The notes under the pieces are model-generated. The model did no database searches and was not told the DNA's origin. It saw nothing but the letters and a program-made list of their open reading frames with translations. Positions 1,977 to 21,255 of a stretch of DNA of 33,039 nucleotides are shown one piece after another. Source of the DNA: a virus; the IMG/VR virus record IMGVR_UViG_3300021403_000037, positions 1-33,039 of that record; one strand, 5' to 3'. The translations under genes were made by a program, and so were the position numbers. How positions within the stretch are numbered: position 1 is the stretch's first letter; each line of letters starts with the position of its first letter.

Positions 1977-2196
1977 ATGGCGCGACGAACAAAACATTAG
2001 AGTTGCCATGGAATTGATGGATCTTGCCCAACGGCAAGAGAGCAAGGGAAATCTCGATGAGGCCTTGCGTTTGGCTGAGAAGTCCATGGAAACAATCAGA
2101 GATATTGATTATCCACGAGGTCAAGCTACCGGCAGCCGTGTCATTGAGCACATCAAAAGTCTCATTGTCGCCAAAGCCATCCGTACAGAGCCGTGA
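1966..2196 (+). CDS. Hypothetical helical (TPR-like) protein
   Basis: A 76-residue protein from ATG 1966, with GAAGG 9 nt upstream, overlapping the HTH gene by 11 nt. The region ELMDLAQRQESKGNLDEALR followed by LAEKSMETI has the spacing of a single tetratricopeptide-type helix pair, though one repeat cannot be diagnostic. Its stop overlaps the GTG start of the terminase (GTGA at 2193), so it is likely translated together with it. A terminase small subunit role is conceivable from position only. Confidence 0.55.
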   Translation: MSDEWRDEQNIRVAMELMDLAQRQESKGNLDEALRLAEKSMETIRDIDYPRGQATGSRVIEHIKSLIVAKAIRTEP

Positions 2197-4781
2197 ACCG
2201 CCCCATCCCTCGTGCCGATCTTGAGCGCTTCAACGCAGCCTTAGCCGAGAAGCGCCGCAGGATAGCCAAGGTCGAGCACCAGACCAGAGGTTACCGGGAT
2301 GAGGATGGGGTATGGCAGGGCGGCCTGCTGAGCTTCGTGCGGTACTTCTGGCATGTGCTGGAGCCTGGCACGCCATTCGTGGATGGGTGGGTCCTGGAGG
2401 CAATCTGTGAGCACCTTGAGGCGGTGACTTACGGCGAGATAACCAATCTCCTGATCAATGTGTTCCCTGGAGCGATGAAGTCGCTGTTGACCAATGTGTT
2501 TTGGCCAGCATGGGAATGGGGGGCGATGGACCTCGCCCATCTTCGATATGTGACGTTCTCGTATAGCTCAAGCAATACCGAGCGCGACAATCAGAGATTC
2601 GGTGATCTGGTGTCGTCGCCCGATTATCAGGCCATGTATCCTCATGTCGCGATCCGCCAGAACGGCATGACGATGGTTTCCAACCGAAAGCATGGCTGGA
2701 AGCTCGCGAGCTCGGTTACAGGCTCGGTCACTGGCAAACGCGGCAATCGAGCGATCTGTGATGATTTAAATAACGTGAAAGAGAGCGAATCCAAGGCGGT
2801 CATGGATGAGACAAACCGATGGTTTCGGGAATCGCTGTCGTCTCGGCTCAACAACATGGAAACCGATGCCAAAATCGTCATATCGCAACGGGTGGGTGAG
2901 GCGGATGTGTCGGGCGAGATCCTGCGATTGAACCTGCCATATACCCATCTCTGCATACCAATGGAGTTTGTTTGGCAGGCTGACGAGAACGGCGACCCAT
3001 ATACGACATCGATCGGCTGGGTTGATCCGCGGTGGCGACCGAATCAGGAGGATTGCGAAGGGGAATTGGCTTGGTCTGAGCGGTTTTCCGAGAGATCGGT
3101 TCAGAGCCTGAAAATTGAACTTGGCCCATTCGCAACAGCTTCGCAGCTCCAGCAAACCCCCGAGGCCCGCGGCGGCGGCCTGATCAAGCGTGAATGGTGG
3201 ATGCCGGCTGAGGTCTACATGACCAATGATGGGCAGAAGTTCCCGCCGTTTGAGTACATCGTGGCGAGCTTGGACGGTGCCTACACCGAGGAAGAAAAGA
3301 ATGATCCGAGCGCATTGGTTATCCTTGGCGTGTTCCAGAATGAACACGGCTATAACCGTGCCATGCTTGTGCACGCTTGGGAGAAGCGGCTGGAGTTCTC
3401 CGGGCCTCGGATGGACGTTGATCCCAACGAACATGAATCGATGTACCGGCGCCGCTGTATGCCCCACTGGGGACTGATTGAATGGGTCGCGGATACGTGC
3501 AAGCGGTTCAAGGCGGATAAGCTACTGATCGAGAGTAAGGCGTCAGGGATCTCTGCAGCTCAATCATTGCGCAATTCGCATGGTCGAGAGGGATGGACTA
3601 TTCAGCTCGTGGAACCAAAGGGCGATAAGTACGCCCGTGTCTTGGCAGTTCAGGCTTCGTTCTCACAGGAGATGATCTATGCGCCTGATCGGGAGTGGGC
3701 GACCCGTGTAATTGATAATATGGCTATTTTCCCGTATGGGGCGCATGACGATTTGTGTTTTGCTGCTGGCACTATGATTGCTACATTGCGCGGTAATGTC
3801 CCGATTGAAAACATTCGATTAGAAGACAAAGTTTTAACTCCAATTGGATGGCATAAAGTAACCGCTACGGGCATGACTGGAATGCGTAGCATCATTGAAA
3901 GACATGGGTTATTGGCTACGCCGAATCACCCAATTTTTACATTTGACTTTGGTTTTGTCGCAATTGATAGTACCACTCAGGCTACGAAGCTTTCGAAGGT
4001 AAATCTATGCGATATGATGAACACAGCGCGCCGGATGAGATCGAATTTAACGGGGTCGTTTATCGAAGGATGGGCGGAAAGAGAAGATATTATCTCTCGC
4101 AATCATCCAGAAATGTTGGACGCAAAAAAGCAAAAGGGCTTCATGTCGCGATCTGGGAACATCACCACTCCTGTTTGGTTCCAAAAGGCCACGATGTTCA
4201 TCATATCGATTACAATACTTTCAATTTCGAGCCTTCTAATCTTGAGTGTTTACCGATGGGCGTGCATCGAAGGATGCCTAAAAAGAATGGTCTTGAGCGC
4301 TTACGCAAACACATCGAAGATATTAGGCCGATGGCAGCGGCGTGGCACAGATCCGAGGAAGGCAGAGAATGGCACCGGAAGCATGCTTTCGAAAGTCTGC
4401 ATCAGTCTGGAAAGGTTTTTGATAACCACCCCGTTGTTGGTAGGGGGAACTGCATTATCTGTGGAGCGGAGTACGATATTAGAAACCGCCGCCGAATATT
4501 TTGTTCGCCGATTTGTCAAAATGTCGACTCCAATAGGAAAAAGAAGGACCGAAGACATGCAGCCCGTATACAATCTCACAGTTGAAGGTGCGCATTGTTA
4601 TTACGCCAATGGAATTTTGGTTCATAATTGTGATGCAATGACGCAGGCAATCAAGCATCTCCGTGACACCGGCCTGATTCGCAGCGATGAGGAGCGCCGG
4701 GCACAGGAGTTGGATGCAGTGAGGCATCGTGGGGCACCTAAAAAGCCCATGTATCCGGGTTTCAGCAGGAGGTCAGCATGA
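2193..4781 (+). CDS. terL: Large terminase subunit with in-frame intein
   Basis: The ATPase and nuclease that packages DNA into the prohead. Starting at GTG 2193 (GTGA overlap) the precursor is 862 residues; removing the 291-residue intein leaves 571, a normal length. ATPase motifs: Walker A-like FPGAMKSLL (about residues 91-99), Walker B AICDDLNNV (about 187-195) and coupling motif VISQRVGEA (about 230). Nuclease motifs: VASLDGAY (about 356), LLIESKASG (about 445) and HDDL (518-521). The intein separates HDDL from CDAMTQAI; joined, they give the usual acidic HDDxxDA motif of the RuvC-like nuclease. Packaging should therefore depend on protein splicing. The middle of the intein is overprinted by an HNH gene in another frame. 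Confidence 0.95.
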   Translation: MNRPIPRADLERFNAALAEKRRRIAKVEHQTRGYRDEDGVWQGGLLSFVRYFWHVLEPGTPFVDGWVLEAICEHLEAVTYGEITNLLINVFPGAMKSLLTNVFWPAWEWGAMDLAHLRYVTFSYSSSNTERDNQRFGDLVSSPDYQAMYPHVAIRQNGMTMVSNRKHGWKLASSVTGSVTGKRGNRAICDDLNNVKESESKAVMDETNRWFRESLSSRLNNMETDAKIVISQRVGEADVSGEILRLNLPYTHLCIPMEFVWQADENGDPYTTSIGWVDPRWRPNQEDCEGELAWSERFSERSVQSLKIELGPFATASQLQQTPEARGGGLIKREWWMPAEVYMTNDGQKFPPFEYIVASLDGAYTEEEKNDPSALVILGVFQNEHGYNRAMLVHAWEKRLEFSGPRMDVDPNEHESMYRRRCMPHWGLIEWVADTCKRFKADKLLIESKASGISAAQSLRNSHGREGWTIQLVEPKGDKYARVLAVQASFSQEMIYAPDREWATRVIDNMAIFPYGAHDDLCFAAGTMIATLRGNVPIENIRLEDKVLTPIGWHKVTATGMTGMRSIIERHGLLATPNHPIFTFDFGFVAIDSTTQATKLSKVNLCDMMNTARRMRSNLTGSFIEGWAEREDIISRNHPEMLDAKKQKGFMSRSGNITTPVWFQKATMFIISITILSISSLLILSVYRWACIEGCLKRMVLSAYANTSKILGRWQRRGTDPRKAENGTGSMLSKVCISLERFLITTPLLVGGTALSVERSTILETAAEYFVRRFVKMSTPIGKRRTEDMQPVYNLTVEGAHCYYANGILVHNCDAMTQAIKHLRDTGLIRSDEERRAQELDAVRHRGAPKKPMYPGFSRRSA
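3995..3999 (+). promoter_or_regulatory. Internal ribosome binding site of the nested HNH gene
   Basis: GAAGG lies 7 nt before ATG 4007, inside the terminase/intein coding sequence. It is a good Shine-Dalgarno match at normal spacing and supports independent translation of the nested endonuclease from the terminase message. Confidence 0.6.
4007..4585 (+). CDS. HNH homing endonuclease nested out of frame in the intein
   Basis: A 192-residue protein read in a different frame from the terminase. It starts at ATG 4007 with GAAGG 7 nt upstream. Motifs run the full length of a free-standing phage HNH family: N-terminal IEFNGVVYRRMGGKRRYYLS, LHVAIWEHHH, the HNH core KGHDVHHIDYNTF then EPSNLECLPMGVH, a WH-repeat segment (AAAWHRSEEGREWHRKH) and a C-terminal four-cysteine knuckle (CIICGAEY and FCSPICQN). 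It should cut intein-less terminase alleles and spread the intein by homing. Its last codons overlap the start of intein block F. A double sequencing frameshift could mimic this layout, but the gene's own ribosome site and complete N-terminus argue against it. Confidence 0.88.
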   Translation: MRYDEHSAPDEIEFNGVVYRRMGGKRRYYLSQSSRNVGRKKAKGLHVAIWEHHHSCLVPKGHDVHHIDYNTFNFEPSNLECLPMGVHRRMPKKNGLERLRKHIEDIRPMAAAWHRSEEGREWHRKHAFESLHQSGKVFDNHPVVGRGNCIICGAEYDIRNRRRIFCSPICQNVDSNRKKKDRRHAARIQSHS

Positions 4782-6933: not shown

Positions 6934-9110
6934 TGGCTGATCCAGCCCAAGACATACACGTAGTCATCGAAGATGACCCAGACGACAGCGTTCGAGTTGT
7001 GGACGGCAACATCGAAATTTCGCAGCCGGACGGTGGCGTCGTCATCCAGTTCAATCCAACGCCGGATTCGGATCTGGAAACCGAAAACCCAGCCGATTTT
7101 TACAAGAACATCGCCGGTAAACTGAGTGAAAGTGAGCGGTTGACGATCGCCAACGAACTCATTGAAGCGATTCAGGCTGATGATTTATCCCGGCAGCCGT
7201 CATTAGCCAACCGCACCAAGGGCATGGACATGCTCGGGCTGCAGATTGCCGATCCGCGGTCTGGGGATGGTGCTGCGGTGATGGATGGTATGTCAGTTGT
7301 AACCAATCCTCTGCTCTTGGAAGCCATCCTCAAGGATTGGGCGAACGCACAGGCTGAGTTTCTGCCGGCGGGCGGTCCATGCAAGGTTGAGGACTTCGGC
7401 GACGATCCTGAGGCGACCAGAGACGAACTCGCCGACGCTTTCGAGCGGGACATGAACTACTTTCTGACCTCGATTGACACCAGTTATGCGCCTGAGACCT
7501 CGCATATGCTTTTGTGGGGGCGTGCTTTTGGCGGTGCCGGGTTCAAAAAAGTCTACATGCACCCGATGAAAAAGCGTCCCACCACTGAATCGGTGGATCA
7601 GAAAGACCTGATCGTTTCGGACGCCACCAAGGATTTCAAATCCTGCGAGCGGATCACCCATCAGATCCCCATGCGCCAGTCGGTCATGAAGCGCATGCAG
7701 AAGAAGGGCCTTTATCTCAACACTGCGCTGACGCCTCCGACGCAAACCGCGAATATGGTTGACGAGAAAACTGCGGCAATCCAAGGTATTGCTGCGGTGC
7801 AATCGCGTCCTGAGGATCAGCCATATACGCTGTATGAGACACAATGCGAGCTTGAGCTTGATCAATTCTCCCCGAAGGACATGCAAGGCCTTGCGTTACC
7901 GTATCTGGTAACGATCGACAAAGATTCGCAGCAGATGCTGGCGCTGCGCCGGGATTGGAAACCTGAGGATGAGGAGTGCCAGCGCAAGCGGATGTACGTC
8001 AAATATCCATACGTGCCGGGGCCTGGTTTCTTCGGCACTGGATTGCTGCATATCCTCGGCAACTCGGCTGATGCGTTAACAGCAGCATGGCGGCTATCGC
8101 TGGATGCCGGTTTCCTTGCCAACTTCCCTGCATTCCTCATTGCAGCGCTCGGTGGGCGCCAGAAAACCTCGGATTTGGTGCTTCAACCTGGCACCGGCAC
8201 GCCGATAGAGACCAATGGCCAGCCAATCTCGGATATCGTTGCCAACCTGCCATACCGTGAGGCTGGCCCTGGTTTGATGGCTCTGATTGATAAGATAACC
8301 GCTCAAGCCAAGAGCGTCGGACTTGCTGCGGAAATCCCAGTAGGCGAGGGAATCAAGGATATCCCAGTTGGGACCATGCTCGCGCATATCGAGATGGCTA
8401 CGAAGTTACAAGCTGCCACACATAAATTAGCGCACGAAGCCCAAGCCGAAGAAATCGGACTAATCGCAGACCTATTACGAGAAAACCCAGAATCGTTCTG
8501 GAAGGGCAATAAGACCAAATTTGCTCAGAAATTTGGTTGGACAGAAGAAAAATTACTTCAGGCATTGGATAACGTTACGTTGGTGCCGAAAAGTGATCCG
8601 AATATACCTTCCCATATCCATAGACAGATGAGGGCCGTGGCTCTGGTTGAGCTAAAGTCTGGTCCGCTTGGTTCTCTGTTGGAGGATAGCGAGGTTCTTA
8701 AACGAGTTCTCCGCGCCATGCGGGAAGATCCCAAGGGCCTTGTTAAGATGCCTCCTCCACCTTCTACGCAACCATCTCCTGAGGAAATGGCCGCTCAAGC
8801 GAAACTTCTCGATTCTCAGACTAAGAGCAAAAAAGTTGATGTTGATGCCGCAGCCAACGCGCAAAAAGCGCAGCTTGATGCCGCGGATCATGATGCAGAT
8901 ATCAAGGAAAAGACGTTGGATCTTGCCAAGGAAGAAATAATTCACAAAGCTGATCAGCAGAAAGCCGCCCATCAACAAGGGATGGATGTTGCTAAGCATA
9001 ATTTGGATGTAGGCGTTGCGGCGCACAAGTCTAAACTTGACACACATAAAGCCGTATTGGATACTCATGAGGCGTTAAAGCCACCTGAGCCATCCACGGA
9101 GACGACATGA
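6933..9110 (+). CDS. Portal protein
   Basis: A 725-residue protein directly after the terminase region, as expected of the dodecameric ring through which DNA enters the head. Features typical of large portals: an N-terminal acidic arm, a region ERDMNYFLTSIDTSYAPETS leading to MLLWGRAFGGAGFKKVYM, a long helical stretch after FFGTGLLHILGNSADALTAA, and a C-terminal coiled coil (about residues 630-710) of repeated AHxxxLD/KxxLD units (KHNLDVGVAAHKSKLDTHK). The long Ala/Lys/Asp-rich barrel-like tail is as in P22-type portals. I assign it by size, order and these local matches; no single motif is diagnostic. The stop overlaps the next ATG. Confidence 0.85.
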   Translation: MADPAQDIHVVIEDDPDDSVRVVDGNIEISQPDGGVVIQFNPTPDSDLETENPADFYKNIAGKLSESERLTIANELIEAIQADDLSRQPSLANRTKGMDMLGLQIADPRSGDGAAVMDGMSVVTNPLLLEAILKDWANAQAEFLPAGGPCKVEDFGDDPEATRDELADAFERDMNYFLTSIDTSYAPETSHMLLWGRAFGGAGFKKVYMHPMKKRPTTESVDQKDLIVSDATKDFKSCERITHQIPMRQSVMKRMQKKGLYLNTALTPPTQTANMVDEKTAAIQGIAAVQSRPEDQPYTLYETQCELELDQFSPKDMQGLALPYLVTIDKDSQQMLALRRDWKPEDEECQRKRMYVKYPYVPGPGFFGTGLLHILGNSADALTAAWRLSLDAGFLANFPAFLIAALGGRQKTSDLVLQPGTGTPIETNGQPISDIVANLPYREAGPGLMALIDKITAQAKSVGLAAEIPVGEGIKDIPVGTMLAHIEMATKLQAATHKLAHEAQAEEIGLIADLLRENPESFWKGNKTKFAQKFGWTEEKLLQALDNVTLVPKSDPNIPSHIHRQMRAVALVELKSGPLGSLLEDSEVLKRVLRAMREDPKGLVKMPPPPSTQPSPEEMAAQAKLLDSQTKSKKVDVDAAANAQKAQLDAADHDADIKEKTLDLAKEEIIHKADQQKAAHQQGMDVAKHNLDVGVAAHKSKLDTHKAVLDTHEALKPPEPSTETT

Positions 9111-9844
9111 TTGATGCCAACGAGGTAAGTGAATATTTAACATACAACTCCGAAACTGGAATACTTCGGAGAGCTAAAACAACCGGAAGGACTGGACAGC
9201 ATAAAAAAGGCGAACGTGCTGGCCATCTGGCCAAAGACGGTTATTGGACCATCAGTATAAACGGAAAGGCATACAAGTCTCATCGATTAGCATTCGCCTT
9301 GATGACCGGAAGATGGCCCAAAGAGCAACTTGACCATATTAACGGCGATAAGTCGGATAATCGCTGGATTAACTTAAGAGAAGCTACCCAGTCGCAAAAC
9401 CAATGGAATGTTGGAAAGAAAAGGAAAAATACTTCGGGTTATACTGGAGTGTTGCCGTGCAACGGAAAATGGCGAGCATGCATTAGTCACAATAAGCAGC
9501 GTGTTCATATTGGATTATTCCCTACGGCTGAACTCGCCCATGCGGCTTATTTGAAGAAGAGATCCGAACTTCACGGTAATTTTGCTAAGATTGATGATGA
9601 AGAAATGAAGCGGCTTAGAAGGTTAAACCTGCTAGATTCCGGTCTAGATGTTGAATGGCAGTCATGGCCATTGGATATGGAAAGGCCTGAATTATGGGCG
9701 TGCGGTCGGGTTACCGCTGAAGCCGAATTTTTTGACCAGATTGCTCAATGGTATCCTGATTTCACGGTTAAGATTTGCCAAGACCAGCCTGAAGCAGTCT
9801 TGAAAGGGCGTCCATTGATTGAAGTTCTGGAAAATTATGTCTAG
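9107..9844 (+). CDS. HNH-AP2 endonuclease with extra C-terminal domain
   Basis: A 245-residue protein from ATG 9107 (ATGA overlap with the portal stop). Residues about 5-100 are an HNH nuclease of the AP2-linked homing type: YNSETGILRRA, SHRLAFALMTG, then the core LDHINGDKSDNRWINLREAT. Residues about 105-155 are an AP2 DNA-binding domain (TSGYTGVLPCNGKWRACISH, then HIGLFPTAELAHAAY, ending ELHGNFA). The last 70 residues (from about LDVEWQSWPLDMERPELW) do not belong to this family and look like a separate small phage protein fused in frame. The gene is more A+T-rich than the portal, which supports it being a mobile insert. Confidence 0.85.
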   Translation: MIDANEVSEYLTYNSETGILRRAKTTGRTGQHKKGERAGHLAKDGYWTISINGKAYKSHRLAFALMTGRWPKEQLDHINGDKSDNRWINLREATQSQNQWNVGKKRKNTSGYTGVLPCNGKWRACISHNKQRVHIGLFPTAELAHAAYLKKRSELHGNFAKIDDEEMKRLRRLNLLDSGLDVEWQSWPLDMERPELWACGRVTAEAEFFDQIAQWYPDFTVKICQDQPEAVLKGRPLIEVLENYV

Positions 9845-18193: not shown

Positions 18194-18784
18194 ATGGCCA
18201 ACGTTCAAGCAGCTTTTGGATTTCGGCATATTGGCTTTCTGCCGGGTTATGCTCCCGACTACCAGCAGCTCACCCGACAGATTCAATCGAGCAACGCGAC
18301 CAAGATTTTCAACGGGGATCCAGTCGTTAAGAGCCAATCCGCCACGAGCTATATCATACAGGGCTCGAACAACACGACCATCTTGGAAGGCATCTTCGTC
18401 GGATGCAATTACGTTCCGACCGGTGGCCAACTGACCCTCCAGCCGAGCCCATTTTGGGTTGGTTCTGCGGCCTCAGATGCCACTGGGTATCTGATCAATG
18501 CGCCCGGTGCGCTTTTCCTTGCAGCCGCGCTCAACACTGCGATCGTTACTTCCAATATCGGCGCCAACATCGGATATTCGATCGGCACTGGGTCAACTGT
18601 CGGCGGTGGTTTCTCTGGTGCCACTCTGGACCAGAGCACGATCAACACCACTAATACCCTCCCATTCCAGATCGTGTCTCTTTATCAGGGCGTCGGAAAC
18701 GGTGCCGATTCTTCGACCCCCTTTAATTGGGCGGTTGTGACCTTCGTGAATCAACGGTTCAGGACTCTGACGGGGGTTCCATAG
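18194..18784 (+). CDS. Probable head decoration or capsid-associated protein
   Basis: A 196-residue protein from ATG 18194, first gene after the terminator and leader, directly before the capsid gene. It is beta-rich and has few charges (FGFRHIGFLPGYAPDYQQL, PVVKSQSATSYIIQGSNNTT, ending NWAVVTFVNQRFRTLTG). Gly/Ser/Thr-rich segments (GYSIGTGSTVGGGFSGATLD) suggest surface loops. Position and composition suit a decoration protein made in many copies with the major capsid protein, but no diagnostic motif exists. The antisense HNH gene overlaps its last 26 nt. Confidence 0.55.
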   Translation: MANVQAAFGFRHIGFLPGYAPDYQQLTRQIQSSNATKIFNGDPVVKSQSATSYIIQGSNNTTILEGIFVGCNYVPTGGQLTLQPSPFWVGSAASDATGYLINAPGALFLAAALNTAIVTSNIGANIGYSIGTGSTVGGGFSGATLDQSTINTTNTLPFQIVSLYQGVGNGADSSTPFNWAVVTFVNQRFRTLTGVP

Positions 18785-19304
18785 GCCGATGTTTCCCACT
18801 CGCAATGATGCTTATCAATGTGTGGCTGATATCGAAAACCTTGGCTATGTCCGAGTTTTTGATACCAACGGCACACATGCGCCGGATCAAGAGAACATCG
18901 TGGTCAGTCAATTTGGTTTGGAGGGGCGGCGGACTAAGTCGGCCGAGTTTCTGAGCGTGTCTCGAATTTTCACGGGGTGTGCACCATTCAAGGTTAGTGA
19001 AGGCATTATTGGTTTTGATCGAATCAATATGGTTGACAAATGGGAGACCTTTAGGATTTGGGACGAATGCGATCGCGACGAGCCTATGAACATTGAAGGC
19101 AGATCCTTTCCCGCCCTTGGTCAAAACTACTCGCGGATATCGCTGGATTTGGATCAGCATTATTCGTCCGATCCGACACTGTGTATGCCCATCGGAGTGA
19201 ATGATCTCACGAGAAACACTTCTGACGCGGCCAAGGTTGCTAACTTCGTAGAACCCTTCGTATCCAACGACGGGTCGCCATTCTTCAGTGATAGTGATAT
19301 TCAT
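18759..19304 (-). CDS. NUMOD4-HNH homing endonuclease, antisense
   Basis: The only well-supported minus-strand gene. From ATG at 19304 it gives 181 residues: NUMOD4 (EEWRPVVGYEGFYEVSNLG, then RVRSVSR), the HNH core (NVHRLVAIAFVPNPKG, then VNHIDSIKTNNAFTNLEWCT, then RENSRHA), and a C-terminal helix-turn-helix (RRMCAVGIKNSDIAKVFDIS, then HTLISIIASGKH). An upstream GTG at 19358 is possible, but NUMOD4 starts naturally at the ATG; GGAAGGA lies about 11 nt before it. It makes a DNA-binding double-strand nuclease that spreads its own gene. The + strand is also open here, but that reading shows no recognisable domain. Confidence 0.88.
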   Translation of the reverse strand: MNITITEEWRPVVGYEGFYEVSNLGRVRSVSREIIHSDGHTQCRIGRIMLIQIQRYPRVVLTKGGKGSAFNVHRLVAIAFVPNPKGLPFVNHIDSIKTNNAFTNLEWCTPRENSRHAQKLGRLSPPPLQTKLTDHDVLLIRRMCAVGIKNSDIAKVFDISHTLISIIASGKHRPMEPPSES

Positions 19305-19345
19305 GTGACGGGTTATCCTTCCGAGTACGACGGATCGATGATCAA

Positions 19346-19379
19346 GGACCCGTCGCACGCTCCAACGTCCGACGGGTCC
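19346..19379. repeat. Perfect 10-bp inverted repeat between HNH and capsid genes
   Basis: GGACCCGTCG (19346-19355) and CGACGGGTCC (19370-19379) form a 10-bp GC-rich stem around a 14-base loop. No T-run follows on either strand, so a terminator is doubtful. It lies in the leader of both the antisense HNH gene and the capsid gene, and its arm is similar to a stretch inside the start of the HNH gene (19263-19282). Confidence 0.5.
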
Positions 19380-19423
19380 GCCATTATGGCATCGACCTCA
19401 ATTACTTACAATAGGAGGCTCCG

Positions 19424-20338
19424 ATTCCGATAGCCCTCGCAAATATTCGATCCGAGCTTCTTCCCGGACTTTTCGACGTTCGGGGTAGCTACGATATGAT
19501 ACCCCGTCAGTGGGACAAAGTATTCAAAACCCATAAGTCCGCAATGGCGGTTGAGCGCTCAACGCAGATGGCGTTCGTTGCGCTGCCGTTCCTGAAGGAT
19601 GAAGGCGCCGCAACTCAGTTCGACAACAATGCTGGCGAGCGCTTTACGTGGGCATTCGTACATATCGAGGTGGCGCTTGGTTACGCGATCACACGCAAGG
19701 CCATTGACGACAATCTGTACAAGGCTCAGTTCAATCCGACGAACCTCAAGCTTCAGGAAGCGTTTGCACAGTTCAAGGAAATCCAGGCAGCGAACGTCCT
19801 GAATCTCGGCAACGTCTACAACACGTCGATCATCGGTGACGGCGTTGCTCTGTTTTCCACGGCGCATCCGTTCGATAACGGCACTTGGGCCAACACTTCA
19901 GCCACGCCGAAGTCGCTGAACGAAGCCGCCCTGCTCGCCGACATGACCAACGTGCGAACTCAGTTCGTCAACGAGCGCGGCCTGCGCATCATGGCACGAG
20001 CTCGCCGGCTGATCGTGCCGCCGAATCTGGAGCAAGTCGCAATCCGGCTGATGAAGACCGAGCTGCGCCCTGGCACGGCGGACAACGACGTAAACGCCAT
20101 CCTCACACTGTCCGGCGGTCTCCCCGAGGGCCATCTCGTGATGGACTTCCTCACCAGCAACTTCGCTTGGTTCCTCACGACCAACATCGAGGGACTGATC
20201 TATATGCTCCGCATTCCGTATGAGTCGGACATGTGGGTTGATAATGTCACCGACAATTTACTTGTCAAGGCATATGAAAGATACAGTTTCGGGTACAATG
20301 ATCCGCGCTGCGCGTGGGCCGAATTCGCTACCAGTTAG
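19424..20338 (+). CDS. Major capsid protein (probable ATT start)
   Basis: The shell protein. From ATG 19496 the frame is 280 residues, but it stays open upstream to 19415 and reads IPIALANIRSELLPGLFDVR before that ATG, a natural capsid N-terminus. A perfect AGGAGG (19413-19418) lies 5 nt before ATT 19424, so I place the start there (304 residues). ATA 19430 and ATG 19496 are alternatives. Internal matches to Mu-gpT-like capsid proteins include VERSTQMAFVALPFLKDEG, ALFSTAHPFDNGTW, RARRLIVPPNLEQVAIRL, FLTTNIEGLIYMLRIP and the C-terminal AYERYSFGYNDPRCAWAEFA. It probably has the HK97 fold. It is flanked by two HNH genes. Confidence 0.85.
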   Translation: MPIALANIRSELLPGLFDVRGSYDMIPRQWDKVFKTHKSAMAVERSTQMAFVALPFLKDEGAATQFDNNAGERFTWAFVHIEVALGYAITRKAIDDNLYKAQFNPTNLKLQEAFAQFKEIQAANVLNLGNVYNTSIIGDGVALFSTAHPFDNGTWANTSATPKSLNEAALLADMTNVRTQFVNERGLRIMARARRLIVPPNLEQVAIRLMKTELRPGTADNDVNAILTLSGGLPEGHLVMDFLTSNFAWFLTTNIEGLIYMLRIPYESDMWVDNVTDNLLVKAYERYSFGYNDPRCAWAEFATS

Positions 20339-20341
20339 AAT

Positions 20342-20360
20342 GACTTACATTGGGTAAGTC
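20342..20360 (+). promoter_or_regulatory. Hairpin directly after the capsid gene
   Basis: GACTTAC (20342-20348) pairs perfectly with GTAAGTC (20354-20360) around ATTGG, starting 4 nt after the capsid stop. No T-run follows. It may stabilise the 3' end of the capsid message or attenuate transcription into the HNH gene. The rest of 20339-20460 has only the ribosome site GGAGA (20449). Confidence 0.45.
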
Positions 20361-20460
20361 TGGAGAAAATCCAAAAGTGTATTTCTCATACGCCAACAAA
20401 TTTGTTGACAGTCTCGGTGGTTATGCCAATATTGAGGCATTCAACCACGGAGAAACTGTC

Positions 20461-21255
20461 ATGGCGTCTAAGAAAGAACTTTCCTTCACTCATCAATGGC
20501 TGAAGGAAAATATGGATTTTGATCAAGCGACTGGTGTTTTCAGTTGGGCAAAGCCCGGCTACGGCCGCACTGTTGGTAAGCCGATTGGCGAAAAGCCTCG
20601 TGCCGATGGTACTCAATATTTAATGATGCGTATCAACGGTCAGTTGCTGTACGCCCACCGATTGGCTTGGTTTTACGTTACGGGAGACTGGCCATCCGGC
20701 GTTATCGATCATATCGATGGCAATAAAACCAATAATGCCATTTCAAATCTTCGTCCGGCGACTCATGCTCAAAATGCTGCACGTCGCAAGACTACTCGAT
20801 TGATCGGACCATCTCGGGGTGTGGTTCCTCATCAAGGCGGCTATGTAGCTCGTATCCACCATGCTGGAAAGCGCCACTATCTGGGTTATTTTCTTGACCC
20901 GGAGAAGGCTAAAGAGGCCTATGAAGCAAAGGCTAAGGAATTGCATGGTGAATTCGCTCATGCTCCAGAACCAAAGCGAGTTCGTGGCGACTACATGAAC
21001 GCCAAGGAATGCGAAATTTGCCAATCAACTAATGGAATCCGATATCACACCACAACGCTAGGAACGCCGCGCGGAATGTTGTGCTTGGATTGCTGGAGTT
21101 TTATGCTTACTCATGGTGACGACGTTCATCATATCCGTGAGTATGCCAAAAAGGTTATCGATTACGTTCAGCAATTGGACGTTCCTGAAGATGACATTCC
21201 TGCATTGCGCGCTCAGATGAATGCGAACGCCTCTCCCGGCTTGGAGCCTGACTGA
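20461..21255 (+). CDS. HNH-AP2 endonuclease with EndoVII-like zinc finger C-terminus
   Basis: From ATG 20461 (GGAGA 7 nt upstream) the protein has 264 residues; an earlier TTG at 20350 has no comparable support. Residues about 5-110 are the AP2-linked HNH type: LTH-like start SFTHQWLKENMDFDQATGVF, AHRLAWFYVTGDWPS, core IDHIDGNKTNNAISNLRPAT. The AP2 domain follows (SRGVVPHQGGYVARIHHAGK, LGYFLDPEKAKEAY, ELHGEFA). The last 86 residues start MNAKECEICQSTNGIRYHTT and contain CxxC, RGMLCLDC and GDDVHH, which recalls the zinc part of recombination endonuclease VII but lacks its DHDH site. It may be a phage protein fused to the homing enzyme. Confidence 0.85.
   Translation: MASKKELSFTHQWLKENMDFDQATGVFSWAKPGYGRTVGKPIGEKPRADGTQYLMMRINGQLLYAHRLAWFYVTGDWPSGVIDHIDGNKTNNAISNLRPATHAQNAARRKTTRLIGPSRGVVPHQGGYVARIHHAGKRHYLGYFLDPEKAKEAYEAKAKELHGEFAHAPEPKRVRGDYMNAKECEICQSTNGIRYHTTTLGTPRGMLCLDCWSFMLTHGDDVHHIREYAKKVIDYVQQLDVPEDDIPALRAQMNANASPGLEPD

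Follow-up and report, generated by a model that had tools for sequence, protein, structure and literature searches.

In canonical inteins such as PI-SceI, the endonuclease domain is fused in frame with the intein. Fractured genes, reportedly described by Dassa et al. in 2009, are split inteins in which a free-standing endonuclease gene lies between the two halves. The window in this study, the whole 33,039-nucleotide stretch of viral DNA that was analyzed (IMG/VR record IMGVR_UViG_3300021403_000037), holds an intein that resembles both systems and differs from both. As in the canonical inteins, a Hint domain is combined with an endonuclease at the point between blocks B and F, and the intein sits in a conserved motif of an essential gene; however, the endonuclease of the window is a separate overlapping gene in another reading frame. 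The halves of a fractured gene are separate ORFs that splice in trans, whereas the intein of the window is one contiguous polypeptide overlapped by an HNH gene. This HNH gene belongs to the HNH_3 superfamily together with the free-standing HNH genes and I-HmuI. The free HNH genes do not overlap an intein and contain many stops in the frame that is used here, and the free relatives of the window HNH directly adjoin terL or the terminase module.

The nearest published case is ShiLan, in which an out-of-frame HNH gene is located within an insertion that is open in the frame of the host methylase; this insertion is without a splicing domain and is thought to remain in the methylase (PMC11855218). 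The two loci are alike in that the HNH gene is hidden in an insertion open in the host frame and is placed at -1 relative to that frame, and in that a sporadic distribution suggests homing. The window differs by a complete Hint domain that flanks the HNH gene and by its host gene, the large terminase. The domain order of the ShiLan HNH differs, and its similarity to the window HNH is remote (35.6 bits). A preprint by Gosselin et al. on actinobacteriophage inteins of non-canonical architecture (bioRxiv 10.1101/2025.01.02.630785) is cited with regard to overlapping frames in PMC11855218 and may describe out-of-frame endonucleases in inteins. The combination of a contiguous intein with an out-of-frame HNH gene was not found described in the literature searched, which included ShiLan and the methylase of phage Applejack (PMC12613952), though the Gosselin et al. 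preprint may overlap with it.

The terL gene of the window is one uninterrupted ORF of 862 aa at 2193-4781 on the plus strand. The features of this gene are listed below by position, strand and supporting evidence.

2193..3755, plus strand: TerL N-extein with the ATPase and most of the nuclease domain (phrog_38; empty-site relative L367)
3756..4628, plus strand: intein of 291 aa, in frame with terL (Cys1, TxxH, LVHN and +1 Cys; TIGR01443; Hint fold; empty site in L367)
3756..4010, plus strand: Hint-N half with blocks A and B, intein residues 1-85 (pLDDT >90 over most of it)
3995..3999, plus strand: Shine-Dalgarno-like GAAGG at a spacing of 7 nt from the start codon of the HNH gene
4007..4585, plus strand: HNH endonuclease gene of 192 aa with an ATG start, in the -1 frame of terL and the intein (PF13392, phrog_15471, AlphaFold2)
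4011..4556, plus strand: linker, the intein-frame reading of the HNH gene, stop-free and mostly disordered (0 stops vs 2.6 expected; pLDDT)
4136..4258, plus strand: HNH_3 catalytic domain, HNH residues 44-84 (PF13392 match)
4451..4516, plus strand: C-terminal zinc-finger-like CxxC...CxxxC, formed by C149, C152, C166 and C170 (invariant in 46 relatives)
4557..4628, plus strand: Hint-C half with blocks F and G (TIGR01443; pLDDT >90)
4629..4781, plus strand: TerL C-extein, starting with the +1 Cys (continues the sequence of the intein-free relative, ...DSMTQAIKHLRDTGLIRSDEERRA)

The identity of terL as a large terminase gene is given by the match to phrog_38 (E=6.6e-67), and no close DNA relatives of terL were found among cultured phages. 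The intein is inserted in a conserved nuclease motif of TerL, between HDDL and CDAM. Cys1 is found at 3756 and block B reads TPNH; the intein closes at 4628 with VYNLTVEGAHCYYANGILVHN, after which comes the +1 Cys. Domain matches in the terL frame are the intein C-terminal profile TIGR01443 (E=1.7e-8) and Hint_2 (3.6e-5), and the intein profile matches gp41-1 with E=7e-18. These coordinates agree with the earlier note on this DNA, which had read an intein with complete splicing blocks at 3756-4628 in the terminase frame. Since the intein has 291 residues, the spliced TerL is predicted to be 571 aa.

The structure of the intein was predicted via AlphaFold2 with 46 sequences of the window and its relatives. 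The two Hint halves (residues 1-85 and 268-291) were modeled with confidence, and the intein model matched the gp41-1, BIL and DnaB inteins in Foldseek. Most of residues 97-134 and 200-259 in the linker fall below a pLDDT of 50. A single helix with mixed confidence is predicted at residues 138-195, probably as a side effect of the DNA that codes for the HNH. The sequence blocks, the Hint fold and a precise in-frame insertion with intein-free homologues were thus all found in the window. IntN and IntC are on the single ORF 2193-4781 and not on separate ORFs as in a split intein. It was also considered whether the insert is a group I intron that carries the HNH ORF and is removed from the RNA, as HNH genes often reside in such introns. 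This explanation is highly improbable, because no Rfam match was obtained at E up to 1 and the insert has complete Hint blocks with catalytic residues in an open frame.

The HNH gene ends with a stop codon at 4583-4585, and the first 29 nt of the Hint-C half double as the end of this gene. The predicted free protein is 22-kDa. It matches PF13392 HNH_3 (E=1.2e-9) and phrog_15471 (E=3.7e-18), and the AlphaFold2 model has a pLDDT of 87. The conserved His/Asn and the zinc-binding Cys of the HNH_3 motif are present; G61, H65 and H66 are unchanged across 46 relatives. The HNH profile matches the homing enzyme I-HmuI (1u3e) with E=0.007. Foldseek matches of the HNH model were weak throughout, and I-HmuI came first with E=0.6. 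The earlier note had correctly located the 192-residue HNH, its ATG at 4007 and the GAAGG at 7 nt in a frame other than that of the terminase.

The HNH was searched against cultured phages via tblastn, and 15 records were found. The match falls within the terminase ORF in four distinct phages: Acinetobacter phage Highwayman, Tetrasphaera phage TJE1, Rhodobacteraceae phage LS06 and an unannotated gut phage. All four have the HNH at -1 and an open intein frame. The HNH gene is missing from the annotation of Highwayman, TJE1 and LS06. In the loci L058/L003, L002 and L004, the GenBank terminase annotations conceal an unannotated HNH gene of ~160-215 codons.

IMG/VR and GTDB genomes were then scanned with HNH queries that are blind to frame. 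The scans relied on narrow alignments, since the profile A1 of nine HNH proteins had proved too diverse for this purpose. The 338 loci gave 238 clusters at 95% DNA identity; the counts are lower bounds taken from the best 80 loci per scan. Among the matches listed, 152 of the 238 clusters have the nested form, with Hint-N and Hint-C in one contiguous ORF and the HNH in the -1 frame, and 33 have the split form, with Hint blocks that flank the HNH on separate ORFs, although these proportions depend on the scan queries, and nested members went into several of those. Examples of the split form are Lactobacillus phage CL2 and Vibrio phage 1.245.O. In another 44 of the 238 listed clusters, no Hint blocks adjoin the HNH and stops interrupt that frame (the flank is long enough for a judgment in 38 of the 44), and 9 are incomplete or unclassified. 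An HNH in frame with the intein, or in the third frame, was found in none of the 238 clusters listed. The nested form is the commonest of the three forms of this HNH family among the matches listed, and the window is not unique.

The N-block profile was matched upstream in all nested loci with enough sequence, and Cys1 is present in 60 of the 60 nested loci that were aligned. Of 52 host proteins scanned, 48 match the TerL family phrog_2, and the window best matches phrog_38. The insertions share a short TerL nuclease motif (D-N-H/C-x-D-A-x-R-Y, with the slash at the insertion point) in a few registers. As far as genome comparison can tell, the recurrence shows that the nested arrangement is a real and repeated way for a selfish gene to occupy an essential gene. 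The earlier note had proposed the overlap of an intein with an out-of-frame, free-standing-type HNH gene and a search of phage genomes for further cases; the 152 nested clusters listed, always at -1, bear this out together with the stop avoidance, purifying selection and empty sites given below.

The same note had named two compensating indels in the reads as the finding that would overturn its reading. Such a sequencing or assembly artefact, in which the indels mask an HNH domain that is really in frame, has a negligible probability. A second and longer contig, of 56,337 bp, agrees over 8,576 bp at 100% identity, and this frame relation is repeated in 151 other distinct phage and prophage loci listed, including independently sequenced cultured phages.

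A phylogenetic tree of the HNH was built via FastTree. The nested, split and free states are clustered yet interchange repeatedly, and the nested state has at least 4 changes on well supported branches by this method only. Several individual loci are of separate interest. The terL of Vibrio phage 1.245.O (L015, 661-4389) appears to hold two inteins, one in frame near the N-terminal ATPase part and one fractured with an out-of-frame HNH at the nuclease motif. A contig labelled as a Thermoplasmatales archaeon (L098, CP070724.1) has the nested form, so archaeal viruses may also carry it unless this MAG contig is misbinned. The contigs L023 and L024 are near-identical, but in L024 the Hint-C half is cut short and some of the C-extein is missing, which may be a non-splicing deletion or an assembly slip.

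The openness of the intein frame was compared with chance by shuffling the HNH genes among their own synonymous codons. The window alone has 0 stops in the intein frame vs 2.6 expected (P=0.03). The 152 nested HNH genes have 0 stops vs 2.39 expected on average, and chance alone would leave 13.4 of the 152 open. As openness is part of the definition of the nested class, a fairer figure is 152 of 160, the number of open clusters among those with both Hint blocks in the -1-related frame. Where the two Hint blocks fall in the third frame, none of 10 clusters is open. Neither the split genes (6.9 stops vs 6.8 expected) nor the free genes (8.3 vs 7.9) are depleted, and the third frame has ~20 stops in every class and is not clearly depleted.

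The intein frame could be open merely because the HNH has few stops there, with no selection for the co-occurrence. The family does have few stops in that frame: free copies hold ~8 per 600 nt in the intein-equivalent frame vs ~20 in the other frame, and some GC-rich free copies (L008, L011 and L013) have just 1-4. This explanation is nevertheless very unlikely. The excess of open genes over the shuffled expectation is seen in the nested class and is absent from the free and split homologues, and the flanking Hint blocks define a class independently of stops.

To determine which frame is under selection, 26 disjoint pairs of nested loci were compared. The differences in the overlap at HNH codon positions 1/2/3 are 1295/1020/2254. 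HNH position 3 is intein position 2, so selection on the intein residues would predict the opposite pattern. All 26 pairs are more alike in the amino acids of the HNH frame than in those of the intein frame (mean identity 68% vs 46%). Upstream of the overlap, the Hint-N part has a normal coding pattern in the intein frame (598/446/1070). The window and its nearest relative L406 follow the same trend, with 52% identity in the HNH and 26% in the intein frame of the overlap. The codon position and identity data indicate that the coding constraint passes from one frame to the other where the HNH gene begins or ends, and that the intein frame of the overlap is only kept stop-free.

A sequence constraint on the intein-frame linker was considered and rejected, because the HNH-synonymous changes do not exceed expectation in how conservative they are in the intein frame (BLOSUM62 -1.27 vs -1.39 expected, P=0.12). 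The linker residues thus appear to be free except for stops. By these sequence comparisons, selection is seen in both frames: the HNH frame is under purifying selection, and the intein frame of the overlap is kept merely open. The suggestion that the insert is constrained in two frames at once, with the accompanying proposal to compare substitutions in both, therefore holds for the HNH amino acids and for the absence of stops in the intein frame, but not for conservation of the intein-frame sequence, as the linker residues appear to be unconstrained.

The purifying selection also bears on whether the HNH is a decaying passenger of an intein that is now vertically inherited. The window HNH is shorter than most relatives, with one zinc finger vs two, and broken frames are found around the HNH in some relatives. 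Decay is unlikely all the same, since the codon positions show purifying selection on the HNH frame in every one of the 26 pairs, 46 relatives have kept the catalytic residues and the Cys residues without change, and near-identical alleles without the intein exist.

These intein-free alleles mark the insertion precisely. The nearest terL relative, L367, is 85% identical over residues 189-521. Its empty site reads HDDL followed directly by FDSMTQAIKHLRD, and the window reads HDDL, the intein, and CDAMTQAIKHLRD. The HNH was unmatched anywhere on the 60-kb contig of L367. A Hint-N profile match is present elsewhere on the L367 locus, and a different gene may carry an intein there. A second empty site is that of Acinetobacter phage Acba_21, which shares 432 of 434 extein residues with Highwayman; Highwayman carries 981 nt extra, exactly between the splice points.

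A start codon was found for the HNH in 149 of 152 nested loci, and 130 of these are ATG. Shine-Dalgarno matches of at least 5 nt are present in 30% of the nested loci vs 11% of the matched controls. The window itself has a modest match of 4-5 nt, and a match of at least 4 is missing in 41% of the nested loci. The mRNA at the HNH start of the window is less structured than shuffles (z +1.4). An internal promoter-like site at 3943-3971 was no better than chance. Internal initiation on the terL message would be the simplest reading, and both proteins would then be made from one message.

Programmed -1 ribosomal frameshifting could instead produce the HNH as a TerL-IntN-HNH fusion and without internal initiation. 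The frame is -1 in every nested locus listed, and 33 of 149 nested loci have a canonical slippery heptamer in the phase that would be needed, compared with 42 of 298 for the remaining phases. However, 78% of the nested loci have no slippery site and no slippery heptamer is conserved among them; the start codons are nearly always present and mostly ATG, the Shine-Dalgarno motifs are enriched, the overlap of the two frames ahead of the start is usually just a few codons long, and the mRNA at the start in the window has less structure than its shuffles. Frameshifting is unlikely, and internal initiation is preferred.

Taken with the alternatives above, the locus is very probably a mini-intein colonised by a complete -1 HNH homing gene that is translated by internal initiation, with the Hint halves tethered by an open linker. 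A cis-splicing mini-intein in the terminase nuclease motif would have been invaded by a complete HNH gene with its own start and stop, which entered between Hint blocks B and F, the usual site of the endonuclease domain. The ribosome on terL would traverse the HNH DNA in a stop-free frame and produce a meaningless and mostly disordered linker. The Hint halves would fold together and splice out the 291 residues. A second ribosome would initiate at the internal ATG 4007 and produce the free 22-kDa HNH protein. This protein would cut intein-free terL alleles, and repair would copy in the whole insert. An open alternative frame would be the one way to carry an intact gene, since an in-frame stop codon would truncate the host protein, and the -1 frame would be used because the HNH genes of this family have far fewer stops there than in the other frame.

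The chances are about even that out-of-frame nesting is general and stable, that the HNH persists in no frame but -1, with its few stops, and that nesting is the missing step to fractured genes, in which a later break of the host frame would give a trans-splicing split intein around a free HNH gene. The locus suggests in this way how contiguous inteins could become split ones. It shows that an intein need not be the single fused polypeptide of the textbooks, since its homing enzyme can be encoded by an independent gene that overlaps it. This would explain how a complete selfish gene is housed in an essential gene without loss of that gene. The nested loci also form a large natural collection of overlapping coding sequences under asymmetric constraint, and many annotated phage terminases, such as those of TJE1, Highwayman and LS06, conceal an unannotated nuclease gene.

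Other homing-type genes are present in the window. A NUMOD4-HNH gene lies at 18759-19358 on the minus strand beside a capsid gene (PF07463, 5e-13). Opposite to it, an ORF of 214-aa without a family match is found at 18789-19433 on the plus strand, a second overlap with a homing-type gene. Two further HNH_3 genes are on the plus strand: one at 9107-9844, which immediately follows the portal gene and also matches AP2 weakly, and one at 20350-21255, immediately after the major-capsid gene. The 33 kb window thus has at least four HNH genes.
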